From: Prochlorococcus marinus CUG1417
GTDB lineage: Bacteria > Cyanobacteriota > Cyanobacteriia > PCC-6307 > Cyanobiaceae
DNA: 64,000 nucleotides
Assembly: GCF_017695975.1 (NCBI RefSeq)
Contig: NZ_JAAORN010000002.1
Location: 124,001-188,000, forward strand
Direction: 5' to 3'
This document shows, one piece after another, positions 29,094-38,943 of this stretch. Within the stretch, counting starts at the first letter, position 1; the number at the start of each line of letters is the position of its first letter. Both the position numbers and the translations under genes were made by a program. Under the pieces are notes generated by a model that worked only from the letters and a program-made list of their open reading frames with translations, did no database searches and had not been told where the DNA came from.

Positions 29094-29543
29094 ATGGGCT
29101 TGAGTAAATTTAAAATCAATTGGGTTCTTAATGAAGAGCTTGCTGTAGGAACAGCTCCTCAAAAGCAGAAACACTTAGAAAAATTAGCCGATGAGGGTAT
29201 TAAGGCAATATTAAGTCTTTGCGGTGAAAATGAAGTAAAAAATGACCTTAATTTGGATGAATTTTTTGATCATAAAAGATATGTTTTACCAGATCATAAG
29301 ACAGGGAAGATTCTTACTTGTATTGAATTAAATGAATCATTAGAAATTTTAAGAAATTTACTTAAGTCTGGGCCCGTTTTTGTTCATTGTTATGCTGCAG
29401 TTGAAAGATCTCCTTTAGTTTGTATGGCATGGTTAATGAAGGAACATCACTTAACTCTTCAGCAATCCCTTGATTATTTAATGCAGTCAAATCCTGGGAC
29501 AAATCCTTTACCTGGTCAACTGAGAGTGCTAAAAGAGATATAA
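29094..29543 (+). CDS. Dual-specificity-type protein phosphatase
   Basis: 149 residues. VFVHCYAAVERSPL holds the HCX5R catalytic signature with Cys99 and Arg105. VLPDHKTGK at 64-72 provides a candidate general-acid Asp67. The fold is that of compact dual-specificity phosphatases, not the low-molecular-weight phosphatase (Wzb) that normally accompanies Wzc. The gene begins seven bases after the wzc stop. The inferred job is removal of phosphate from the Wzc tyrosine cluster. A distinct phosphoprotein or phosphorylated carbohydrate substrate is the alternative. It is followed 13 bases later by the YdcF gene. Confidence 0.87.
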   Translation: MGLSKFKINWVLNEELAVGTAPQKQKHLEKLADEGIKAILSLCGENEVKNDLNLDEFFDHKRYVLPDHKTGKILTCIELNESLEILRNLLKSGPVFVHCYAAVERSPLVCMAWLMKEHHLTLQQSLDYLMQSNPGTNPLPGQLRVLKEI

Positions 29544-30955: not shown

Positions 30956-31648
30956 TCATCTTTTAATACAATATCCAATTGCCACATCAATAGAATGTGA
31001 TATGGATATTTCTAAAAATATTTTTGGATAACTTTTTAATATTACATAAGGCTTACCATTGGAATAATGTCTTATCTCAATAAAATTAAACTGAATTTTA
31101 TTTTTATTATTTAACGCTTTTATAACTGCCTCCTTAGCAGCATATATGCCTAATAAAGTTATTTTAGGATCTGGCCTAGAAAGAGAATAAACCACTTCAA
31201 GTTCAGTAAACAATGAAGATCTAAGGTTTACATTATCTGATGAGAATATATCATCAGGGAAAGAAGACAAATGTTGTATATCTACTCCTATTCCAATTTC
31301 ATTTGAATTATGATCTTGTTCATTATTAGAAGAATCAAAATAAATATTTAAATCTTTTTCTATAGAACTTTCTTTATTATTTTTTGGGAAAGTTTGATTT
31401 TTTTCAATACTATTAAGAATCTCTCTTATTGTAGTTTCAGCTGTTATTTCTTCAAATTCAATTTGGGGGAATACTTCTTCTAATCTCACTTTAACCCTTT
31501 CTGCCAATAAGGAGCTAAAAAGATTTATTACTTCCCATAATTTTGATTCTTCTGTTATCTTTACATTTTTATTTAAAGGAAATTGTTTAATTACTTCAAC
31601 TAAATTTTTATAGATATTTTTTTCCAATGTTACCAGCCCCCCAAACAT
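30956..31648 (-). CDS. Fused acyl-carrier-protein-like domain and holo-ACP synthase (AcpS) domain
   Basis: 230 residues. Residues 115-230 are an AcpS-type 4'-phosphopantetheinyl transferase: IGIGVDIQ (Asp123), FTELEVVYS, then LGIYAAKEAVIKAL with Lys172-Glu173, and ISISHSIDVAIGY. Residues 10-83 look like an acyl carrier protein. Ser46 in LFSSLLAERVKVRLEEVF sits 14 residues before the Phe of the EEVF helix, the same spacing as Ser to Phe in E. coli ACP, although the usual DSL is SSL here. Linker 84-114 is Asn/Ser-rich. The protein could therefore pantetheinylate its own carrier domain; that is inference. The gene overlaps the upstream synthetase gene by 19 bases in the -1 frame. Confidence 0.78.
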   Translation of the reverse strand: MFGGLVTLEKNIYKNLVEVIKQFPLNKNVKITEESKLWEVINLFSSLLAERVKVRLEEVFPQIEFEEITAETTIREILNSIEKNQTFPKNNKESSIEKDLNIYFDSSNNEQDHNSNEIGIGVDIQHLSSFPDDIFSSDNVNLRSSLFTELEVVYSLSRPDPKITLLGIYAAKEAVIKALNNKNKIQFNFIEIRHYSNGKPYVILKSYPKIFLEISISHSIDVAIGYCIKR

Positions 31649-34065
31649 AAATCACAAATATATCTAGCATTATTCTCAGTAGATATTACCTTTAATAAAA
31701 AAGCGTCATTTCCTCTGTCTCTCTCTAATTCATTAATATTTGCTCTGCATTTAAAACAAAAATATTCTTTTTTAATAGAACTTGAATTTAAATTATTTTC
31801 TTTATCAGAAATATCAAAAAATTCTCCCTTTGAATTTATCTTACTCTTATTATTTGATAACTTATCAATGAGATTATAAATTTGACTCCTAATTATTTTT
31901 ATAGAATCATTTTCATGATTATCAAAGATTATATTTATTTTGAAGGTATTATTTTTAATATCAAAACTTTTAAAAATTATAATAATTGTTTTATTATTAT
32001 TTAAATCAATTCTTAAACATCCATTTATTATATCTTTAAAAAACAATGCATTTTTAAAAGAAGAATCAAAAAAGTTTTCATGAATATCTTTTATAGAATT
32101 ATTATTCAACTTATATGATAATTCGATATATTCTGAATTATGCAATTCAAGATTTAAGAATAAATCCTTAGGGAAAAATTCTGTTCCTAGTCGAAATAGT
32201 TTTTCAATCACCATTAAAATAAAATATTTAATAGTTGATTCAAAATTAAATAACTTAGTGAACTCCTTTTCAAAAAGATTTAAAGAAAATATTTCTGAAT
32301 TAGAAGTATATCTATCTATTTGCTCTTTGATGTATTTGAAATAAATTTTGAAAAATTTTTCTTTATTACTTAGAGTTGAATAATCTTTATTTTGATCAAT
32401 AATTAACTTTGATATTATTTCTCTCATTATTCTTCTTTGAATTTTTCCACTTTTTGTTTTGGGTAGATAATCAAATAAAATTATTTCTTCTGGCAGATGA
32501 TATACACTTAAATTTTGTCTAATCTTATCAAGAATATTTTTATGAATATTTTCAAATTCATACTCTCTATTTTTGTTTAATGAAATAAAAATTATAGGCT
32601 TTTCACCTAAAATATTATCATTTTTTGATACGACACAAGCTTCACTGACCCCTTTTATAGAGAGACATATACTTTCAATCTCTGCGCTAGATATTCTGTG
32701 ACCTGCGGTATTTATAACATCATCACTTCTACCTCCTACATAAAGAAATCCCTTATTATCAAAATATCCAACATCATGTAATCTATAAAAACCCTCTGAA
32801 GTGAAATAATTTACTTCTCTATCAGATTGAATTTCTTTGTATATTCCTTCCCAATATTTTGAAATAATTATTTCATTTGGGTCTATATTTTCAGCATCTA
32901 GTTTTTCATTACTAAATTTTTCCTTTGCAATAAATAATCCTAAATCCTCTCTAGGTTTACCAACTGATGAATAGTCATCCGGAAGACCATCCTCATCTCT
33001 CGGAGCAACTAATATACCCCCAGTTTCAGTCTGAAAATAAGTATTAACTATTGCTTTTCTTGAAGGCTTAAAAAATTCTGCAGCCCATAAACCAACTTCA
33101 TGTGCTAGAGGTTCACCACAAGATCCTATTCTTTCTAGGCTGGGAAAAAAAGAATTATTATTATTATAAATTTTATTCTCATCAAATCTACTTTTTAGTA
33201 ATCTGAGAAAAGTAACTGATGAATAGAAGCAAGTAATTTTTAATTTATTAATTAAATCAAAAATATTTGTATTTTCTAAAAGATAATTTAAATTTTCACA
33301 CAAAATAGTTTGTGAGCCATTTGAAAGTGGGCCATAAACTGCATAAGTGTGGCCATTAATCCAACCAGCATCAGTCGCACAGAAAATGATTGAATTTTCA
33401 TTAGCCCCAAAAAAATAATTAGTAGAAAATTTTGCGTAATTTATATATGATCTAACTCCATGAACCACGCCTTTAGGTAAACCTGTTGAACCTGAAGTAA
33501 ACAATGTAAAAAGTGCAGAATCTTTTGAATATAAATTAGGTAATGATGTATATTTAATATTTTCATTAAATTCTTCAAGTAAATTTTCAGCATTTATCTT
33601 ATATTTTGCTTTTATATTCATTATTTCTATATTTTCTAATTTTTCAATTTTTGAAGATTGATTATTTGAGAAAATAACTATATCAGGTTTGAATAATTCT
33701 ATCCTTGCTAGTATTGCTTTATGAGATAAATCTTCAAAGCAAATACTATGATGAGCTCCTAGATAAGCACAGGCCAGCATAAAAATCAAAGATTCCTCTG
33801 AACTACCAATAATTCCTAAAATTTTTATCTGTTTTTTTATAGAATTATTTAAAAGCCTAGTTATTTTTCCAACAAGAGATTTAACTTGTGAATCCAGATA
33901 ATCCTTATTTATCTCTTTAATTGTCCCATCTGATTTTATTATTTTCGCTAACACATCATTTTTATTATATTTTTTTAGAATAAATTCATATAAATTGAAA
34001 TTTTGGTTTTCAAACGAATTATCTCTCCAATTTTCCGGAGGAATATCAATTATTAAATTAGACAT
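31630..34065 (-). CDS. Acyl-CoA synthetase-like AMP-forming enzyme with unknown C-terminal region and zinc-finger tail
   Basis: 811 residues. Residues 1-555 are an adenylate-forming enzyme close to acetyl/propionyl-CoA synthetases: TSGSTGLPKG at 190-199, YFQTETGG, GRSDDVINTAGHR, and KSGKIQRR with catalytic Lys541. Residues 560-765 match nothing I recognise. The tail has a CxxC pair at 770/773 and another at 804/807, ending CLGGW, and probably binds zinc. The next gene encodes an ACP-AcpS fusion and overlaps by 19 bases, so the likely role is activating an organic acid and loading it on that carrier domain. A hexapeptide acyltransferase is divergent, 58 bases away. The acid is unknown. Confidence 0.85.
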   Translation of the reverse strand: MSNLIIDIPPENWRDNSFENQNFNLYEFILKKYNKNDVLAKIIKSDGTIKEINKDYLDSQVKSLVGKITRLLNNSIKKQIKILGIIGSSEESLIFMLACAYLGAHHSICFEDLSHKAILARIELFKPDIVIFSNNQSSKIEKLENIEIMNIKAKYKINAENLLEEFNENIKYTSLPNLYSKDSALFTLFTSGSTGLPKGVVHGVRSYINYAKFSTNYFFGANENSIIFCATDAGWINGHTYAVYGPLSNGSQTILCENLNYLLENTNIFDLINKLKITCFYSSVTFLRLLKSRFDENKIYNNNNSFFPSLERIGSCGEPLAHEVGLWAAEFFKPSRKAIVNTYFQTETGGILVAPRDEDGLPDDYSSVGKPREDLGLFIAKEKFSNEKLDAENIDPNEIIISKYWEGIYKEIQSDREVNYFTSEGFYRLHDVGYFDNKGFLYVGGRSDDVINTAGHRISSAEIESICLSIKGVSEACVVSKNDNILGEKPIIFISLNKNREYEFENIHKNILDKIRQNLSVYHLPEEIILFDYLPKTKSGKIQRRIMREIISKLIIDQNKDYSTLSNKEKFFKIYFKYIKEQIDRYTSNSEIFSLNLFEKEFTKLFNFESTIKYFILMVIEKLFRLGTEFFPKDLFLNLELHNSEYIELSYKLNNNSIKDIHENFFDSSFKNALFFKDIINGCLRIDLNNNKTIIIIFKSFDIKNNTFKINIIFDNHENDSIKIIRSQIYNLIDKLSNNKSKINSKGEFFDISDKENNLNSSSIKKEYFCFKCRANINELERDRGNDAFLLKVISTENNARYICDLCLGGW
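31636..31642 (-). promoter_or_regulatory. Possible -1 slippery heptamer G GGG GGC at the synthetase/ACP-AcpS overlap
   Basis: Read in the synthetase frame the minus strand is TTG GGG GGC TGG TAA, so the heptamer fits X XXY YYZ with X and Y both G. A -1 shift here enters the frame of the ACP-AcpS gene, 12 bases before... the synthetase stop at 31632-31630 would be avoided. Natural slippage, a recent indel and a sequencing error are all possible explanations. Confidence 0.4.
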
Positions 34066-34123: not shown

Positions 34124-34753
34124 ATGAAAGCATTAATAAAAGTTGTTGGGCTAAATTTTATTTTTAAAATCAATAGCGCCATATGGTTTTTAATACTTAA
34201 ATTAAAAGGTATAAAAGTTGGAAGAAATTTTTATATTGAAGGTGTTATATTTCTAAAGCTTAAAGGTGATGATTATTCGAAAATTTCAATAGGGAATAAC
34301 GTATCTATCAATGGTGATTTAGATTTAAGAACTAGAGAGTCTGGGAAAATAATTATAAAAAATGATATAAACTTCGATAGTGATATAAGAATAGTAGCAG
34401 CAAGGAATAGCGAAATAAATATAGAGAATGGAGTAAGGATTGGAAGAAATACTATGATAGTTGCAGGTGAAGATGTAAAAATTGGTGCAAACGTACTTAT
34501 TGGCCCTAATTCTTTAATTCAAACTTCTAATCATGGATTTTCAAATCCAGGAGATATAAAGGGACAAAAATATTCACACAAGCGCATCGAGATTGAAAAT
34601 GGAAGTTGGATTGCTACATGCGTAATATTATTACCTGGAGCTTTTATTGGCGAAGGATCAGTAATAGGAGCAGGTTCAGTTGTTTCAAAAAAAATCAGTC
34701 CAAAATCAATTGTTTCAACTCCGCCGGCAAAAATAATATCTAAAAGATCTTAA
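34124..34753 (+). CDS. Left-handed beta-helix (hexapeptide repeat) acyltransferase, WbbJ/LacA-like
   Basis: 209 residues. From about residue 55 the chain shows hexapeptide periodicity (isoleucine/valine every six residues), for example INIENGVRIGRNTMIVAG and VKIGANVLIGPN. SNHGFSNPGDI holds the catalytic-type histidine, and IEIENGSWIATCVILLPG and IGEGSVIGAGSVV close the helix. Family members acetylate or otherwise acylate sugars from acyl-CoA, sometimes acyl-ACP. It is divergent from the acyl-activating synthetase/ACP-AcpS pair, so it may use their product; this is inference. A hydrophobic N-terminal stretch (residues 5-30) may associate with the membrane. Confidence 0.85.
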   Translation: MKALIKVVGLNFIFKINSAIWFLILKLKGIKVGRNFYIEGVIFLKLKGDDYSKISIGNNVSINGDLDLRTRESGKIIIKNDINFDSDIRIVAARNSEINIENGVRIGRNTMIVAGEDVKIGANVLIGPNSLIQTSNHGFSNPGDIKGQKYSHKRIEIENGSWIATCVILLPGAFIGEGSVIGAGSVVSKKISPKSIVSTPPAKIISKRS

Positions 34754-34780: not shown

Positions 34781-36052
34781 TCAAAAAATAATTAACTTTA
34801 TAGCATCAGTCAATTGATCTATTTTATCAAAATATTTATCAACATACTTATTAGTAGAACTAGTTATTAATTCCTTAGATTTTTCAAGAATATAAACTAG
34901 TGCGCCGTTTTCAGAAGCCTCAATAACGGTAGTTGATGTGGGATTACAAGGTATATATATTTTTGTTCTTTTAGCAAGTTCTACAAAATCTTCATTGCCT
35001 GCAAATATCTCAAAATTTTTATTTTCAGAATTTATTGTTGATAAAAAATCATTTTTTGTTTGTGCGGGATGTAATTTTATAGCAAAACTTATATTATTTA
35101 TTTGTAGCTTTTCAATTAAAGTTTTTAGGTTTGAATACATCACTCTAGAAGTACCTATAAGCAGATCTATATCCTTTTTAAAATTTTTAGCTTTGTTTTT
35201 TATATTTTTATTTTGTTTGTAAACTTTTGATTTAACGGGATAATTAACTTCAAACTCATTTCTTGTTAAAATTATTTCGGAAGGAAGAGTAAGAATCTTT
35301 TCATATAATTTAGGATACATATACCCTATATGATTTGGTGCAATAATGGAATGTTGAAATTCCTGAGAAATAATATTTAGCTTATTAGTAAGATAGCAAA
35401 CGCTTTTAAGAGAACCATCATTTATTAGTCCTACTGAATTAAGATTTTTAAATCTTTTTAATATGTTTTTCCAAATAAAATATGATGATTTAAATTTTTT
35501 ATAGTTTTCTGTAAATATTTTTACAAAATCAATTTCAGTTTTGAAATTATTATTAATTTTTTCATCAATATATTTAAATTCTGAGATTAGAGATTTTGGT
35601 ACAAATACAAATCTACTTAATAATTTAATAATAAAATCAACACTTTCTTTTTTAAGACCGTTTTGATTTATCAAGTTATTATTAGTAATCAAAAATGATT
35701 GAGATTTAAATTTATTAATTTCTTGATTAATACAAAATAAGTTTCTATTAAAGATAAATATTCTTTTATATTGATTTTTTTTCATAAAATAAAATTTGAT
35801 AAAATAACCTATTAAATTTAAAAACTTCCTTGTCAATCTAAAGATCTTTAAAATTAAATCCTCGTATGTTTTTAAAGGATAACTGTAAATACCATTAAAT
35901 TCACACAACGCGAATTGAACATCATACCTTACAATATCCCACCATTTAAATCCTTCTGAATCAATACAAATATAAAATAATTTATTTCTTTTCTCAAAAG
36001 AATTAAAATCCAAAATAAACTTTTCTAAGTTGTCAGAAATATTATCTTTCAT
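34781..36052 (-). CDS. Putative GT-B-like glycosyltransferase at the end of the sialic-acid operon (sialyltransferase candidate)
   Basis: 423 residues, not matched confidently to a named family. The C-terminal half has a GT-B look: EFQHSIIAPNHIGYMYP, then IDLLIGTSRVM, FAIKLHPAQ, and CNPTSTTVIEASENGALVYI. An HP motif, a later S/T-rich motif and an acidic-Gly motif (INDGSL near 213) are the three marks of bacterial GT-B sialyltransferases and polysialyltransferases, but the acidic-Gly motif here is NDG, not D/E-D/E-G. It overlaps neuA by four bases, so it is coupled to the gene making CMP-sialic acid. That context is the main reason for the sialyltransferase suggestion; a capsule-type transferase using another donor is possible. 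Confidence 0.55.
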   Translation of the reverse strand: MKDNISDNLEKFILDFNSFEKRNKLFYICIDSEGFKWWDIVRYDVQFALCEFNGIYSYPLKTYEDLILKIFRLTRKFLNLIGYFIKFYFMKKNQYKRIFIFNRNLFCINQEINKFKSQSFLITNNNLINQNGLKKESVDFIIKLLSRFVFVPKSLISEFKYIDEKINNNFKTEIDFVKIFTENYKKFKSSYFIWKNILKRFKNLNSVGLINDGSLKSVCYLTNKLNIISQEFQHSIIAPNHIGYMYPKLYEKILTLPSEIILTRNEFEVNYPVKSKVYKQNKNIKNKAKNFKKDIDLLIGTSRVMYSNLKTLIEKLQINNISFAIKLHPAQTKNDFLSTINSENKNFEIFAGNEDFVELAKRTKIYIPCNPTSTTVIEASENGALVYILEKSKELITSSTNKYVDKYFDKIDQLTDAIKLIIF

Positions 36053-36741
36053 TTCTCTTGATAATTATTTAAATATTTTCTTGCATTTTCTAAATCTTCA
36101 AAATTATCAATATCTATAGACCTCTCTTTTTCCATAATGACAAGTCCTAAATCCCCTCCCCATAATTTACCTGTTAAATCAAATAATTCTCTTTTTACAG
36201 AAAAAATGGCTCCATTTCTTCTATAAAAAATAGGTAACTTTTGCCTGCTTAAGAATTCATAATTCGGAAGGAGAGATTTAGCATTACCTTCTTCTAAAAT
36301 ATAAGTTTTTGCGGCGCTATTATCAGATTTATAAACACTTAAAACTGAATCATAATTTTCTTGATTAATCATATTTAATGCATTTAAAATATCTTTTTTC
36401 TGCCTTAAAGGTGAAGTTACTTGAAGTATAGTAATTGAATTAAATCTTTCACATTTGAAATCAACTTCTTTAAGTAAATGTTTTACAACAGATGCTGTAG
36501 TAGCATCATCAGTAGCCAGTTCCATTGGTCTATTTACTAAAAAAATACCATTATTCAATGTAATATTTTTAAGCTCGTGATCTTCTGTTGATACGAAAAT
36601 ATTATTTAATGGAAAAGCCGATTTTGCTTGATTAATAGTCCATTCTAGAAGAGAAATATTTTTATATATTTTCCTAGCATTTTTTCCAGGAATACCCTTA
36701 CTTCCACCTCTTACTGGAATAATACATAAATTTTTATCCAT
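36049..36741 (-). CDS. neuA: CMP-sialic acid synthetase (N-acylneuraminate cytidylyltransferase)
   Basis: 230 residues. CIIPVRGGSKGIPGKNARKI at 6-25 is the CTP-binding signature of CMP-Neu5Ac/CMP-legionaminate synthetases. LQVTSPLRQKKDI and FYRRNGAIFSVKRELF follow in the standard order, and ERSIDIDNFEDLENA is the usual C-terminal metal-binding segment. It activates a nonulosonic acid with CTP. It lies seven bases after neuC and overlaps the putative transferase gene by four bases. Whether the sugar is neuraminic, legionaminic or a related acid is not fixed by this protein, but no UDP-sugar dehydratase/aminotransferase pair for legionaminic or pseudaminic acid is present nearby. Confidence 0.9.
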   Translation of the reverse strand: MDKNLCIIPVRGGSKGIPGKNARKIYKNISLLEWTINQAKSAFPLNNIFVSTEDHELKNITLNNGIFLVNRPMELATDDATTASVVKHLLKEVDFKCERFNSITILQVTSPLRQKKDILNALNMINQENYDSVLSVYKSDNSAAKTYILEEGNAKSLLPNYEFLSRQKLPIFYRRNGAIFSVKRELFDLTGKLWGGDLGLVIMEKERSIDIDNFEDLENARKYLNNYQEK

Positions 36742-36748
36742 AATAAAA

Positions 36749-37915
36749 CTATTCTTTTATGTAATGTATTTTTTTCTGTATGGTAGTTTTACAAGTAGCT
36801 AAATAATTTGCAATCTTTTTACCAGATTTTCCGTCCCCTACAATAGTAGATTTTTTATATTTCCCATGTTTTATCTGATAATTTATAGCTTCATATATAT
36901 TATTACTATCATGATTTACATCAATTACATTATCACTTTTTTCTCTTCCTTCTTGTCTTGAACCAATATTTACACAAGGTGTTCCTAAGAAAGCACACTC
37001 TCTAAGTCCTGATGAAGAATTTCCAACAATACATTTCGCATTTGCCAATAAACATATATAATCCTCAGGTGAAAAATTTCTATAAAATCTCATATTTATA
37101 GTATTATTTTTCTCTCTGAATGATCTTATCCCTTTAGAGACATCATCTGAACCCGCATCAACATTTGGCCAAAGCCAAATAATTTGCATTCCCTTCTGGG
37201 CATGCTTAAAAGCAGCACTTAAAGTGTGATTAATTTGAGCAAATCCCTCTCCGTATTCTGTAGTAATTGGATGTTGTAGTACTACTATAAAGTCCTTATC
37301 TGGGTCAATCTCTTCACCAACTCCCCCATATTTTTTAAAAATTTCAGGGTCTAATTTCAGATCAGATTCTGCGACCAAGTCAATTGCTGGACAACCGGTT
37401 AAGTAAACTGAACTAGGATCTTCACCTAATCGTAAAATAAAATCTTTTGCTCTTTCCGTTGCCGGGAAATGAATATGAGCTAATTTTGTTATTGCATGTC
37501 TAACTGATTCATCAATAGAACCGGTTACTTCACCACCCTGAGTATGAGCAAGAGGAATATTCATATAACTTGATGCGATTGCAGTGGCAAGAGTTTCAAA
37601 TCTATCAGCAACTGTCAATACAATATCGGGTTTTAAATTTTCAAAATGCGTAGCTAATTCAATAATCGCCAAACCAGTAGATTTAGCCATTGTTGTTGGA
37701 TTTTCGCCTTCTATTATTGATGATACAGTTGCTAATTCTTTAAAACCATCTGCACGTATATTATTAATTGCCGAACCGAATCTTGTTAGTAGAGCTGATG
37801 AACCAACTATTAACTGTAATTCTAAGAGAGGATGTTTATCAATTTCTCTCATTACTGTTTTTATTCGACCATAGTTAGCTCTACTATGAACAGCTATACA
37901 AACCTTTCTTTTCAT
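36749..37915 (-). CDS. neuC: Hydrolysing UDP-GlcNAc 2-epimerase (NeuC/LegG family)
   Basis: 388 residues, the normal NeuC length. VCIAVHSRANYGRIKTVM opens the GT-B-like fold. ADRFETLATAIASSYMNIPL and HTQGGEVTGSIDESVRHAI are the conserved R/E/H active-site segments of the hydrolysing group. NSSSGLRECAFLGTPCVNIG is the C-terminal UDP-binding part. NeuC converts UDP-GlcNAc to ManNAc plus UDP, the precursor for NeuB; LegG does the same with the 2,4-diacetamido sugar. The ATG overlaps the neuB stop by four bases (37912-37915). It is clearly distinct from the two WecB-type epimerases at 53341 and 60879. Confidence 0.9.
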   Translation of the reverse strand: MKRKVCIAVHSRANYGRIKTVMREIDKHPLLELQLIVGSSALLTRFGSAINNIRADGFKELATVSSIIEGENPTTMAKSTGLAIIELATHFENLKPDIVLTVADRFETLATAIASSYMNIPLAHTQGGEVTGSIDESVRHAITKLAHIHFPATERAKDFILRLGEDPSSVYLTGCPAIDLVAESDLKLDPEIFKKYGGVGEEIDPDKDFIVVLQHPITTEYGEGFAQINHTLSAAFKHAQKGMQIIWLWPNVDAGSDDVSKGIRSFREKNNTINMRFYRNFSPEDYICLLANAKCIVGNSSSGLRECAFLGTPCVNIGSRQEGREKSDNVIDVNHDSNNIYEAINYQIKHGKYKKSTIVGDGKSGKKIANYLATCKTTIQKKIHYIKE

Positions 37916-38943
37916 TCAATCTCTTCTAATTTTAAAAGTCTGTTTATTTTAACATTGGTTTTTAATTTCTTCCCTATGAGTTTATGAAGATCTTGAATTG
38001 GGACCCCAGAACCAGGTTTTTTTAGAGAAAGATCTTTTTCATTAATTATGTGACCTTTTTCAAAATCACCATTGTATGTAAGACTTTTACCAAAAAGTTT
38101 TTTTTGTTTATTAAGATCCTTAGCTATAAGATCTTTATTGATTGGATTTAATCTCATAATTTCTAAGTCTTTTGAAAAACTAACAATTGATTCTATTTCT
38201 TCTAAAGTTAAAGAGGATGATACATCTGGACCAAACATTCTTTTATCGAATGTGGCATGGACTTCAATAATGTTAAAACCATTTGCTAATGCTGCTAGAG
38301 AAGGAGATATTGATCCAGAATGGTCAGATAATCCGACCCTACAATTATATTTTTTTTTAAAATCATGCAGAATGTTTAGACCAACTTCTGCCAAATTAGT
38401 TGGATACTTACTTGTGCACTGCATCAAACAAAAATTACTTTTCTCTTTTTTTAGTAATTTTATTAATTGATCTATTTCAGCCCAACTACTCATCCCAGTA
38501 CTTATTATCATAGGCATTTCTAATTTTAATAATGATCTAAAAATACCATTGATAGAAATGTCACCAGAACCTATCTTCCAACCTTCTACCCCAATATCTT
38601 TTAGTAATTTTACTGCCGCTAAAGAAAAAGGTGTACTTAAAAATAATATTTTTTTTTCATCAGCATGTTTTTTTAATTCTAACCATTCTTTCTTAGTAAA
38701 CTCCATTCTTTTCCAATATTCATATCTACTTTTATCTTGATATGAGAAATTTACTCTAAATTCATCATCAAATGATGACTCTTCTGCTGCTATATGAGTT
38801 TGAAACTTAATTGCGTTTACCCCTGCATCTGCACACGCATCAATATATGCATGAGCCATACCAAGAGATCCATCATGGTTTTGACCAATCTCTGCAATTA
38901 TTAACGATTTAGATTCTATAGATAAGATTTCGTCTAATTTCAT
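37912..38943 (-). CDS. neuB: Sialic acid synthase (N-acetylneuraminate synthase family)
   Basis: 343 residues. IIAEIGQNHDGSLGMAHAYI is the NeuB start motif, and AGVNAIKFQTH, WKIGSGD, MIISTGMS, LMQCTSKYPT and VGLSDHSG form the barrel active site in the right order. The C-terminus FGKSLTYNGDFEKGHIIN and LKKPGSGVP is the antifreeze-like SAF domain. The enzyme condenses phosphoenolpyruvate with ManNAc (or the legionaminate precursor) to a nonulosonic acid. It is the first gene of the neuB-neuC-neuA-GT operon. A TATAAT on its strand at 39007-39002 lies about 60 bases before the ATG. Confidence 0.92.
   Translation of the reverse strand: MKLDEILSIESKSLIIAEIGQNHDGSLGMAHAYIDACADAGVNAIKFQTHIAAEESSFDDEFRVNFSYQDKSRYEYWKRMEFTKKEWLELKKHADEKKILFLSTPFSLAAVKLLKDIGVEGWKIGSGDISINGIFRSLLKLEMPMIISTGMSSWAEIDQLIKLLKKEKSNFCLMQCTSKYPTNLAEVGLNILHDFKKKYNCRVGLSDHSGSISPSLAALANGFNIIEVHATFDKRMFGPDVSSSLTLEEIESIVSFSKDLEIMRLNPINKDLIAKDLNKQKKLFGKSLTYNGDFEKGHIINEKDLSLKKPGSGVPIQDLHKLIGKKLKTNVKINRLLKLEEIE

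Follow-up and report, generated by a model that had tools for sequence, protein, structure and literature searches.

The window analyzed here, a 64,000-nucleotide stretch of Prochlorococcus marinus CUG1417 DNA, carries side by side on one strand a gene for an acid-activating ligase and a gene whose product appears to fuse an acyl carrier protein (ACP)-like domain to a holo-ACP synthase (AcpS). These genes raise the question as to whether the two products, within a surface-glycan island, form a unit dedicated to acyl loading, and we regard the prospects of this as about even. Both genes are real as open frames, as given in the preliminary description, and the fusion is found in three of 266 Prochlorococcus genomes (the window's own, G132, and G260). 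The relevant features are as follows.

30956-31627, minus strand: ACP-like/AcpS fusion gene, with a likely TTG start at 31627; the open frame (230 residues) is 30956-31648
31394-31627, minus strand: carrier-like half, residues 8-85, with the motif INLFSSL and the Ser46 codon at 31511-31513
31301-31393, minus strand: linker, residues 86-116, with nine nonsynonymous and no synonymous changes relative to G260
30959-31300, minus strand: AcpS half, residues 117-230 (PF01648)
31630-34065, minus strand: ANL-superfamily ligase, acetyl-CoA-synthetase-like, 811 residues
31633-32340, minus strand: ligase C-terminal extension, about residues 576-811, ending in a CxxC...CxxC tail

The fusion likely starts at the TTG at 31627 (residue 8 of the open frame), 2 nt past the ligase stop codon, and the G260 and G132 homologues have an ATG at about this place. 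The protein is then probably 223 residues long, and a start at residue 8 renumbers Ser46 as Ser39; open-frame numbering is used below.

The ligase is a member of the ANL superfamily

The earlier identification of a carboxylic-acid-activating enzyme is borne out by the presence of both ANL domains (PF00501, E = 2.1e-39; PF13193, E = 4.5e-14) and of the catalytic SGK lysine, with the motif LPKTxSGKI found in all four ligases compared. The nearest family is acetyl-CoA synthetase, although the TIGR02188 score of 320.9 bits is far below the cut-off of 724.95. The loop corresponding to that of the CoA residue Arg191 of acetyl-CoA synthetase contains no arginine in the window ligase; there are gaps in this loop, however, and the counterpart may be Lys139, which is invariant. 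Loss of Arg584 was dropped as a sign of ACP use because the genome's own Acs, as read, apparently lacks it too. One CoA-using enzyme has been described that lacks all three CoA-binding arginines (PMC10455477), and arginine loss therefore does not exclude the use of CoA.

The C-terminal extension with its previously noted CxxC/CxxC tail is shared with the G132 homologue and is absent from the 578-residue ligases of G143 and G160. When residues 571-811 were used as a query, matches were obtained in three of 229 genomes (the window's own, G132, and G102); the G102 match, interrupted by stops and overlapping a creatininase-like frame, was taken as chance.

A possible, highly divergent acyl carrier in the N-terminal half

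No Pfam ACP family, PF00550 included, matches the N-terminal half of any of the three fusions. The NCBIfam ACP model NF009104 matches residues 10-83 of the window protein with an E value of 0.025 (14.5 bits; the cut-off is 70), and no NCBIfam ACP model matches the other two fusions; profile searching of the two halves thus supported the AcpS half (PF01648) and yielded no significant match to ACP models. The ACP motif Gx(D/H)S(L/I) is absent, and all three fusions instead have LFSSL, in which Ser stands where an Asp usually precedes the ACP serine. Nonetheless, Ser46 is conserved among the homologues, being invariant in all three fusions, and INLFSSL, which contains this predicted phosphopantetheine serine, is the best-conserved stretch of the N-terminal half. 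The proposal of an ACP-like first half is supported in part by the invariant serine and by the register test described below, but not by Pfam, and by NCBIfam only at E = 0.025.

Comparisons with controls gave mixed results. The carrier half scored 15.95 by hhalign, compared with no more than 9.89 for 60 scrambled or reversed controls, whereas against 426 real decoy segments the three N-terminal halves ranked 3, 4, and 11 by hmmsearch and 8, 9, and 44 by hhalign. Alignment of the N-terminal half to six ACPs by hhalign gave an E value of 0.22, and no ACP was found among PDB sequences. In a hydrophobic-register test, which is post hoc, having been devised after a simpler test had favored Ser45, Ser46 falls on the phosphopantetheine serine, and none of 423 decoys reaches the window or G132 protein at slack 1 and 2. 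At slack 3 the scores are reached by 4 to 13 decoys, fusion 2 is reached by two to three decoys at slack 1 to 2, and a real ACP (L028) fails the test. With helix II alone, other registers are preferred for the window protein, register 7 being its third choice.

AlphaFold2 (AF2) models had pLDDT values of 49.1 (full-length, poor) and 67.7 and showed no significant carrier match. The single-sequence model of the carrier half shows three helices, not a four-helix bundle, and Ser46 lies within a helix; Foldseek returned no match to it at an E value of 0.001, with the carrier BlmI at rank 5 (E = 3.5), and VIA-align gave neither a carrier nor any Z score of at least 5. Taken by itself, the direct evidence for a carrier is moderate. 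Identification of a putative carrier draws on gene position, motif, and register, with no significant family match, and its main support is that a separate ACP or ACP-like gene lies beside the ligases of G143 and G160. In G143, a ligase without the extension is followed by a PF00550 ACP, and in G160 the genes after such a ligase encode a NeuD/PglD acyltransferase and a 94-residue ACP-like protein. Within the window's own genome, PF00550 detects a single, housekeeping ACP, and a profile of 11 ACPs matches none of the 136 window frames at an E value of 1 or below.

A different reading is that the N-terminal half is a helper domain, for docking or oligomerization, of an accessory AcpS, with the ligase making acyl-CoA or loading the housekeeping ACP for an acyltransferase. 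The missing Pfam match, the poor decoy ranks, and the three-helix model all fit such a role, as does the presence of the housekeeping ACP, and use of CoA is compatible with the lost arginine given the enzyme of PMC10455477. However, the ACP or ACP-like genes adjoining the G143 and G160 ligases, the placement of the predicted serine in the most conserved stretch of the N-terminal half, and the loss from the AcpS half of Arg14, the contact of the ACP Asp, all count against it, and we consider a helper domain unlikely, though worth keeping in mind.

The AcpS half retains catalytic residues but has altered contact residues

Identification of the second half of the fusion as a holo-ACP synthase was confirmed by profile searching. 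PF01648 matches residues 119-218 of the window fusion with an E value of 2.3e-11 (44.2 bits, above the cut-off of 25) and the G132 fusion with 37.9 bits; phmmer relates the AcpS half to Bacillus subtilis AcpS (2e-8), and the first Foldseek match of the full-length AF2 model is 1f7l, although the Foldseek matches support the AcpS half only. Counterparts of the catalytic Asp8, Lys57, Glu58, and Lys62 are present in all three fusions (Asp123, Lys172, Glu173, and Lys177 in the window).

Arg14 of AcpS contacts Asp35 and Asp38 of ACP. At this position all three fusions have Ser (Ser129 in the window), whereas 29 of 29 unfused AcpS proteins have Arg. The change leaves the family assignment untouched but lowers the likelihood that the AcpS half would modify ordinary ACPs. 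Arg53 of AcpS, a residue close to the 3'-phosphate of CoA, is replaced by Ile in all three fusions, and the predicted AcpS activity could therefore be reduced or lost. The altered contact residues on both halves suggest that the putative carrier and its own AcpS could be a private pair, and they would fit a bypass of the fatty-acid ACP pool.

It is also conceivable that the N-terminal half is a true carrier, primed by a host Sfp-type phosphopantetheinyl transferase (PPTase), with the AcpS half impaired or serving other carriers. A second PPTase gene, sharing 61% identity with the one in G032, does lie in the genome (G000:C1:84545-85189), and the AcpS half was accordingly discounted as the sole PPTase of the host. 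Such a division of labor would also accommodate the missing Arg14 and Arg53, but retention of the four catalytic counterparts in every fusion and a dN/dS of 0.10 in the AcpS half argue otherwise, and we think it improbable.

The fusion is rare and under purifying selection

The fusion gene evidently evolves under purifying selection, with a dN/dS of 0.23 between the window and G260. That the island is a decaying or unexpressed remnant with no present function is very improbable: the fusion is rare, but the window, G132, and G260 all have uninterrupted frames, dN/dS is low, and gene order is retained in G132 at 40 to 45% identity. In G132, genes for the ligase, the fusion, and an acyltransferase of the NeuD/PglD type directly follow one another, so that the window's order of ligase and fusion is repeated there, with an acyltransferase adjoining.

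In a search of the phylum, 96 of 386 genomes matched, including the window's own. The 29 other AcpS loci read out are all unfused, with stop-to-stop frames of 112 to 154 residues, and none matches the 11-ACP profile at an E value of 0.01. Among the remaining tabulated matches, the long ones reaching into the N-terminal half contain stops. Three N-terminal-half matches are in open frames (G621, G711, and G906); the one examined, in G621, has no Pfam match in the stretch and looked unrelated. When 400 Cyanobiaceae genomes were sampled for a profile search, the sole match was the genome of the window itself, G132 and G260 presumably being outside the sample. Scans of viral contigs detected no relative of the fusion (by protein or alignment), its N-terminal half, or the ligase, and tblastn of phages with the fusion found nothing. 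For plasmids, tblastn with the ligase at an E value of 1e-60 found nothing, and with the fusion gave eight records, each matching only from residue 111 on, which is the AcpS half.

A possible acyl-loading unit and its partners

If the ligase and fusion are a dedicated acyl-loading unit, the AcpS half would take phosphopantetheine from CoA and attach it to Ser46 in the carrier half, within a chain or between subunits. The ligase, to judge by its family, would adenylate a small carboxylic acid, probably of somewhat greater size or polarity than acetate, and pass the acyl group to the carrier thiol. A hexapeptide acyltransferase might then transfer it to a nucleotide sugar or glycan, at an amino or hydroxyl group; a sialic-acid-like sugar is one possible acceptor, as the neighboring genes hint:

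34124-34753, plus strand: divergent hexapeptide acyltransferase, WbbJ-like (NF007240, E = 1.6e-19), a possible partner
36049-36741, minus strand: cytidylyltransferase (TIGR03584, 106 bits, below cut-off)
36749-37915, minus strand: NeuC-like (TIGR03568, 385.9 bits, above cut-off)
37912-38943, minus strand: NeuB-like (TIGR03569, 287 bits, below cut-off)

The hexapeptide acyltransferase that had been placed at 34124 is present and is the sole match among the 136 window frames to a profile of the G132 and G160 acyltransferases. However, it most resembles the WbbJ O-acetyltransferase, whereas the enzymes beside the G132 and G160 ligases best match NeuD/PglD, and it is a weak candidate for the acyltransferase of the unit. 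The sialic-acid-like sugar genes (36049-38943) are a candidate acceptor pathway.

More tentatively, somewhat short of an even chance, the fusion may be a carrier that primes itself, is insulated from its host, and modifies only itself, and the partner ligase may favor it over CoA, the two together making a portable unit that supplies acyl groups for surface sugars. In such an insulated carrier, the pair would modify only itself because both sides of the canonical Asp35/Arg14 contact are lost. If so, the fusion would unite a carrier and its own synthase in a minimal protein of about 223 residues, outside the giant synthases, and would offer studies of carrier recognition a natural orthogonal ACP/PPTase pair. 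By acquiring such a small cassette, a streamlined ocean bacterium could then change the acyl groups on its surface; Prochlorococcus surface glycans matter in phage infection.

Relationship to known systems

The preliminary description named no known system with this arrangement. This holds for the fusion, as we recognized neither a small fused ACP-AcpS nor this gene arrangement in the open-licence literature, but not for ligase-plus-ACP loading, which is already described for RfbL/RfbK (acid activation) in the Vibrio cholerae O1 O-antigen cluster; the small fused ACP-AcpS is thus the only new part. The window likewise has a ligase among sugar genes, with a candidate carrier beside it; by description, the RfbL/RfbK carrier is a protein of its own, and the description drawn on here mentions no fused AcpS. 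CalE8, an enediyne polyketide synthase, is described as having a carrier and a PPTase domain in one chain, with Ser for the usual Asp in its serine motif HMSSI, as in FSSL of the fusion (PMC3107222); it is a large multidomain polyene-making synthase, in contrast to a small two-domain protein beside a ligase.

The Dlt system (DltA, DltC, and DltB) similarly pairs an ANL ligase with a dedicated carrier for surface acylation, and the G143 set includes, with its PF00550 ACP, a protein with weak similarity to DltB (TIGR04091, E = 7.3e-5; 22.2 bits, cut-off 375). A Pfam scan of 10 window genes found no DltB-type MBOAT protein, but the DltB-like protein of G143 likewise escaped Pfam. The Dlt system differs in having no fused AcpS, and the window ligase is nearer to acetyl-CoA synthetase than to DltA. 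In fungal fatty acid synthase, a carrier lies in the same chain as the PPT domain. This giant multienzyme has another function, but the AcpS half of the fusion matches its PPT domain (7bc4, phmmer E = 4e-6; 2wat, Foldseek E = 0.036).

Gene layout and start site

Downstream of a gene for an acetyl-CoA-synthetase-like ANL enzyme (the ligase) lies a frame that joins a carrier-like N-half to a holo-ACP synthase (AcpS) half (the fusion).

31630-34065, minus strand: ligase, 811 aa, open frame
31633-32340, within the ligase gene: C-terminal extension with a four-cysteine tail, from sequence
30956-31648, minus strand: fusion frame, 230 aa, open frame downstream of the ligase

The most probable reading of the pair, judged from sequence, is a dedicated unit for acyl loading, with a putative ACP-like carrier joined to a synthase of its own. 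The likely start of the fusion is a TTG at 31627, two bases past the ligase stop; the homologues in two other Prochlorococcus genomes, G260 and G132, have an ATG at about that position, and the ligase and fusion genes are therefore probably translationally coupled. With this start, the proposed phosphopantetheine serine, Ser46 of the 230-aa frame, becomes residue 39 (Ser36 in Escherichia coli ACP). The genome (1.65 Mb) is 99.99% complete, and the nearest named record, an uncultured Prochlorococcus contig, encodes a 90% identical fusion.

Relatives and gene order

The fusion was found in 3 of 266 Prochlorococcus genomes and the ligase (E of 1e-100 or better) in four, the G260 contig stopping short of the ligase position; among 386 genomes sampled across the phylum, the only ligase at that threshold is the window's own. 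The search for the three-gene set proposed in the preliminary description was partly borne out: extended ligase, fusion, and acyltransferase are consecutive in G132, but the acyltransferase there is of NeuD/PglD type, and that of the window is closest to WbbJ. The extension is present in both ligases accompanied by a fusion and missing from both that are not. One of the latter, in G143, belongs to a Dlt-like set in Prochlorococcus (L011 5273-10019): after it come a PF00550 ACP, a protein of 431 aa that matches no family, and, encoded on the other strand, a protein weakly resembling DltB. After the other, in G160, come a NeuD/PglD-type acyltransferase and a 94-aa protein, the latter ACP-like by eye and by a weak match (E 0.16) and having no ACP family match. 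In another genome, G100, two further surface-island sets (L055 5234-7873 and L056 7789-10809) each combine a short ACP-like protein, whose motif is LDSL or IDSM, with a protein judged by eye to be ligase-like. These gene sets make the carrier reading of the fusion more likely.

A protein encoded just upstream of the G160 ligase, at L012 7182-7910, weakly matches 2OG-Fe(II) oxygenases (E 0.00063, below the cut-off) and might modify the acid. Among surface-sugar genes of G205, beside usual island genes, is an Sfp-like PPTase of 227 aa (L020 8785-9468; PF01648, E 3.9e-10).

The AcpS half

The proposed synthase identity of the second half is secure, with matches to PF01648 (E 2.3e-11) and Bacillus subtilis AcpS (2e-8, phmmer), and 1f7l as first Foldseek match (E 3.6e-3) to a low-confidence structure model of the fusion. 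All three fusions retain counterparts of Asp8, Lys57, Glu58, and Lys62, and all three replace Arg14 with Ser and Arg53 with Ile, both positions being Arg in 29/29 unfused AcpS proteins. AcpS Arg14 touches ACP Asp35/Asp38, and Arg53 of Bacillus anthracis AcpS is located around the nucleotide 3'-phosphate (PMC3447402). Over AcpS positions 13 to 28, the 29 unfused proteins carry a net charge of 0 to +6, averaging 2.1, and the fusions carry -2, -2, and +1, such that the third fusion is inside the usual range.

The putative carrier half

Of the two halves, the putative carrier is the less secure. A single NCBIfam ACP model covers residues 10 to 83 of the window fusion (E 0.025), and a profile of the N-half aligned to 11 ACPs scores 15.95 by hhalign (E 0.0043, but with a probability of 3.3%), versus at most 9.89 for scrambled or reversed controls (n = 60). 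We also used a hydrophobic-pattern test permitting slight shifts among helices I, II, and III-IV; it was devised once a version with a single register had given its maximum at the neighboring Ser45. Its registers (6, 7, 6 in the window protein; 9, 10, 9 in G132) place the phosphopantetheine serine on Ser46. With a slack of one or two residues, none of 423 real decoys equals the window or G132 score, and 2 and 3, respectively, match that of G260; at three residues, 4, 13, and 4 decoys score as high as the fusions. Taken alone, helix II of the window protein favors two different registers, and III-IV of the G132 protein a different one. The test misses a real ACP segment, L028, and could not score L031.

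Several results count against a carrier. None of the three fusions has a Pfam ACP match, and the two outside the window have no NCBIfam ACP match. Among 426 segments, the N-halves rank 3, 4, and 11 (hmmsearch) and 8, 9, and 44 (hhalign); a six-protein ACP alignment gives E 0.22, and no ACP is among the matches to PDB sequences. Structure prediction, suggested in the preliminary description, agrees for the AcpS half (1f7l), but an AF2 model of one N-half sequence has three helices, with Ser46 within a helix, and fold searches with it gave no significant match. Comparison of the window fusion with that of G260 gives a dN/dS of 0.295 for the N-half (8 nonsynonymous and 6 synonymous changes) and 0.097 for the AcpS half, with values of 0.18 and 0.16 for two adjoining genes; the linker differs by 9 nonsynonymous and 0 synonymous changes.

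The ligase and known systems

Identity between the ligase and the Acs of the same genome is 29%. Asn237, Cys316, and Phe344, each invariant in the four ligases, replace Thr311, Val386, and Trp414 of the Acs pocket, suggesting as substrate an acid that is somewhat bulkier or more polar. The four-cysteine tail may bind zinc; a Pfam search of the extension gave nothing over the cut-off, and a PHROGs search nothing better than E 0.5. No Arg counterpart of Arg191 is visible in the window ligase, where gaps interrupt the loop and an invariant residue, Lys139, may substitute. The counterpart of Arg191 mattered most for CoA in mutants of a methanogen Acs, and another enzyme uses CoA while having none of the three Arg (both from PMC10455477), so the absence is suggestive only.

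Such components are already known: RfbL/RfbK pairs a ligase with a carrier in an O-antigen cluster (PMC12208996), and CalE8 holds a carrier and a PPTase domain in one chain (PMC3107222). Of the arrangement for which the preliminary description recognized no described system, only the small, putative ACP-AcpS fusion beside a ligase appears to be new; literature searches did not find it.

Neighboring genes

In the window and in G132, the two fusion loci whose sequence extends far enough, NeuB- and NeuC-like genes lie within about 8 kb. A profile built from the acyltransferases of G132 and G160 matches one of 136 window frames, the divergent gene at 34124; its best family is the WbbJ O-acetyltransferases, and it is a weak candidate for the partner. 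The genome has another PPTase gene and one ACP by PF00550. A protein of 423 aa (34781-36052), encoded in the interval from this hexapeptide gene to the sialic-acid-like genes, matches nothing in Pfam at E 1 or in NCBIfam at E 1e-10. A dual-specificity-phosphatase-like protein (29094-29543; PF00782, E 3.2e-14) is encoded just after a 766-aa protein that by eye resembles a polysaccharide tyrosine kinase.
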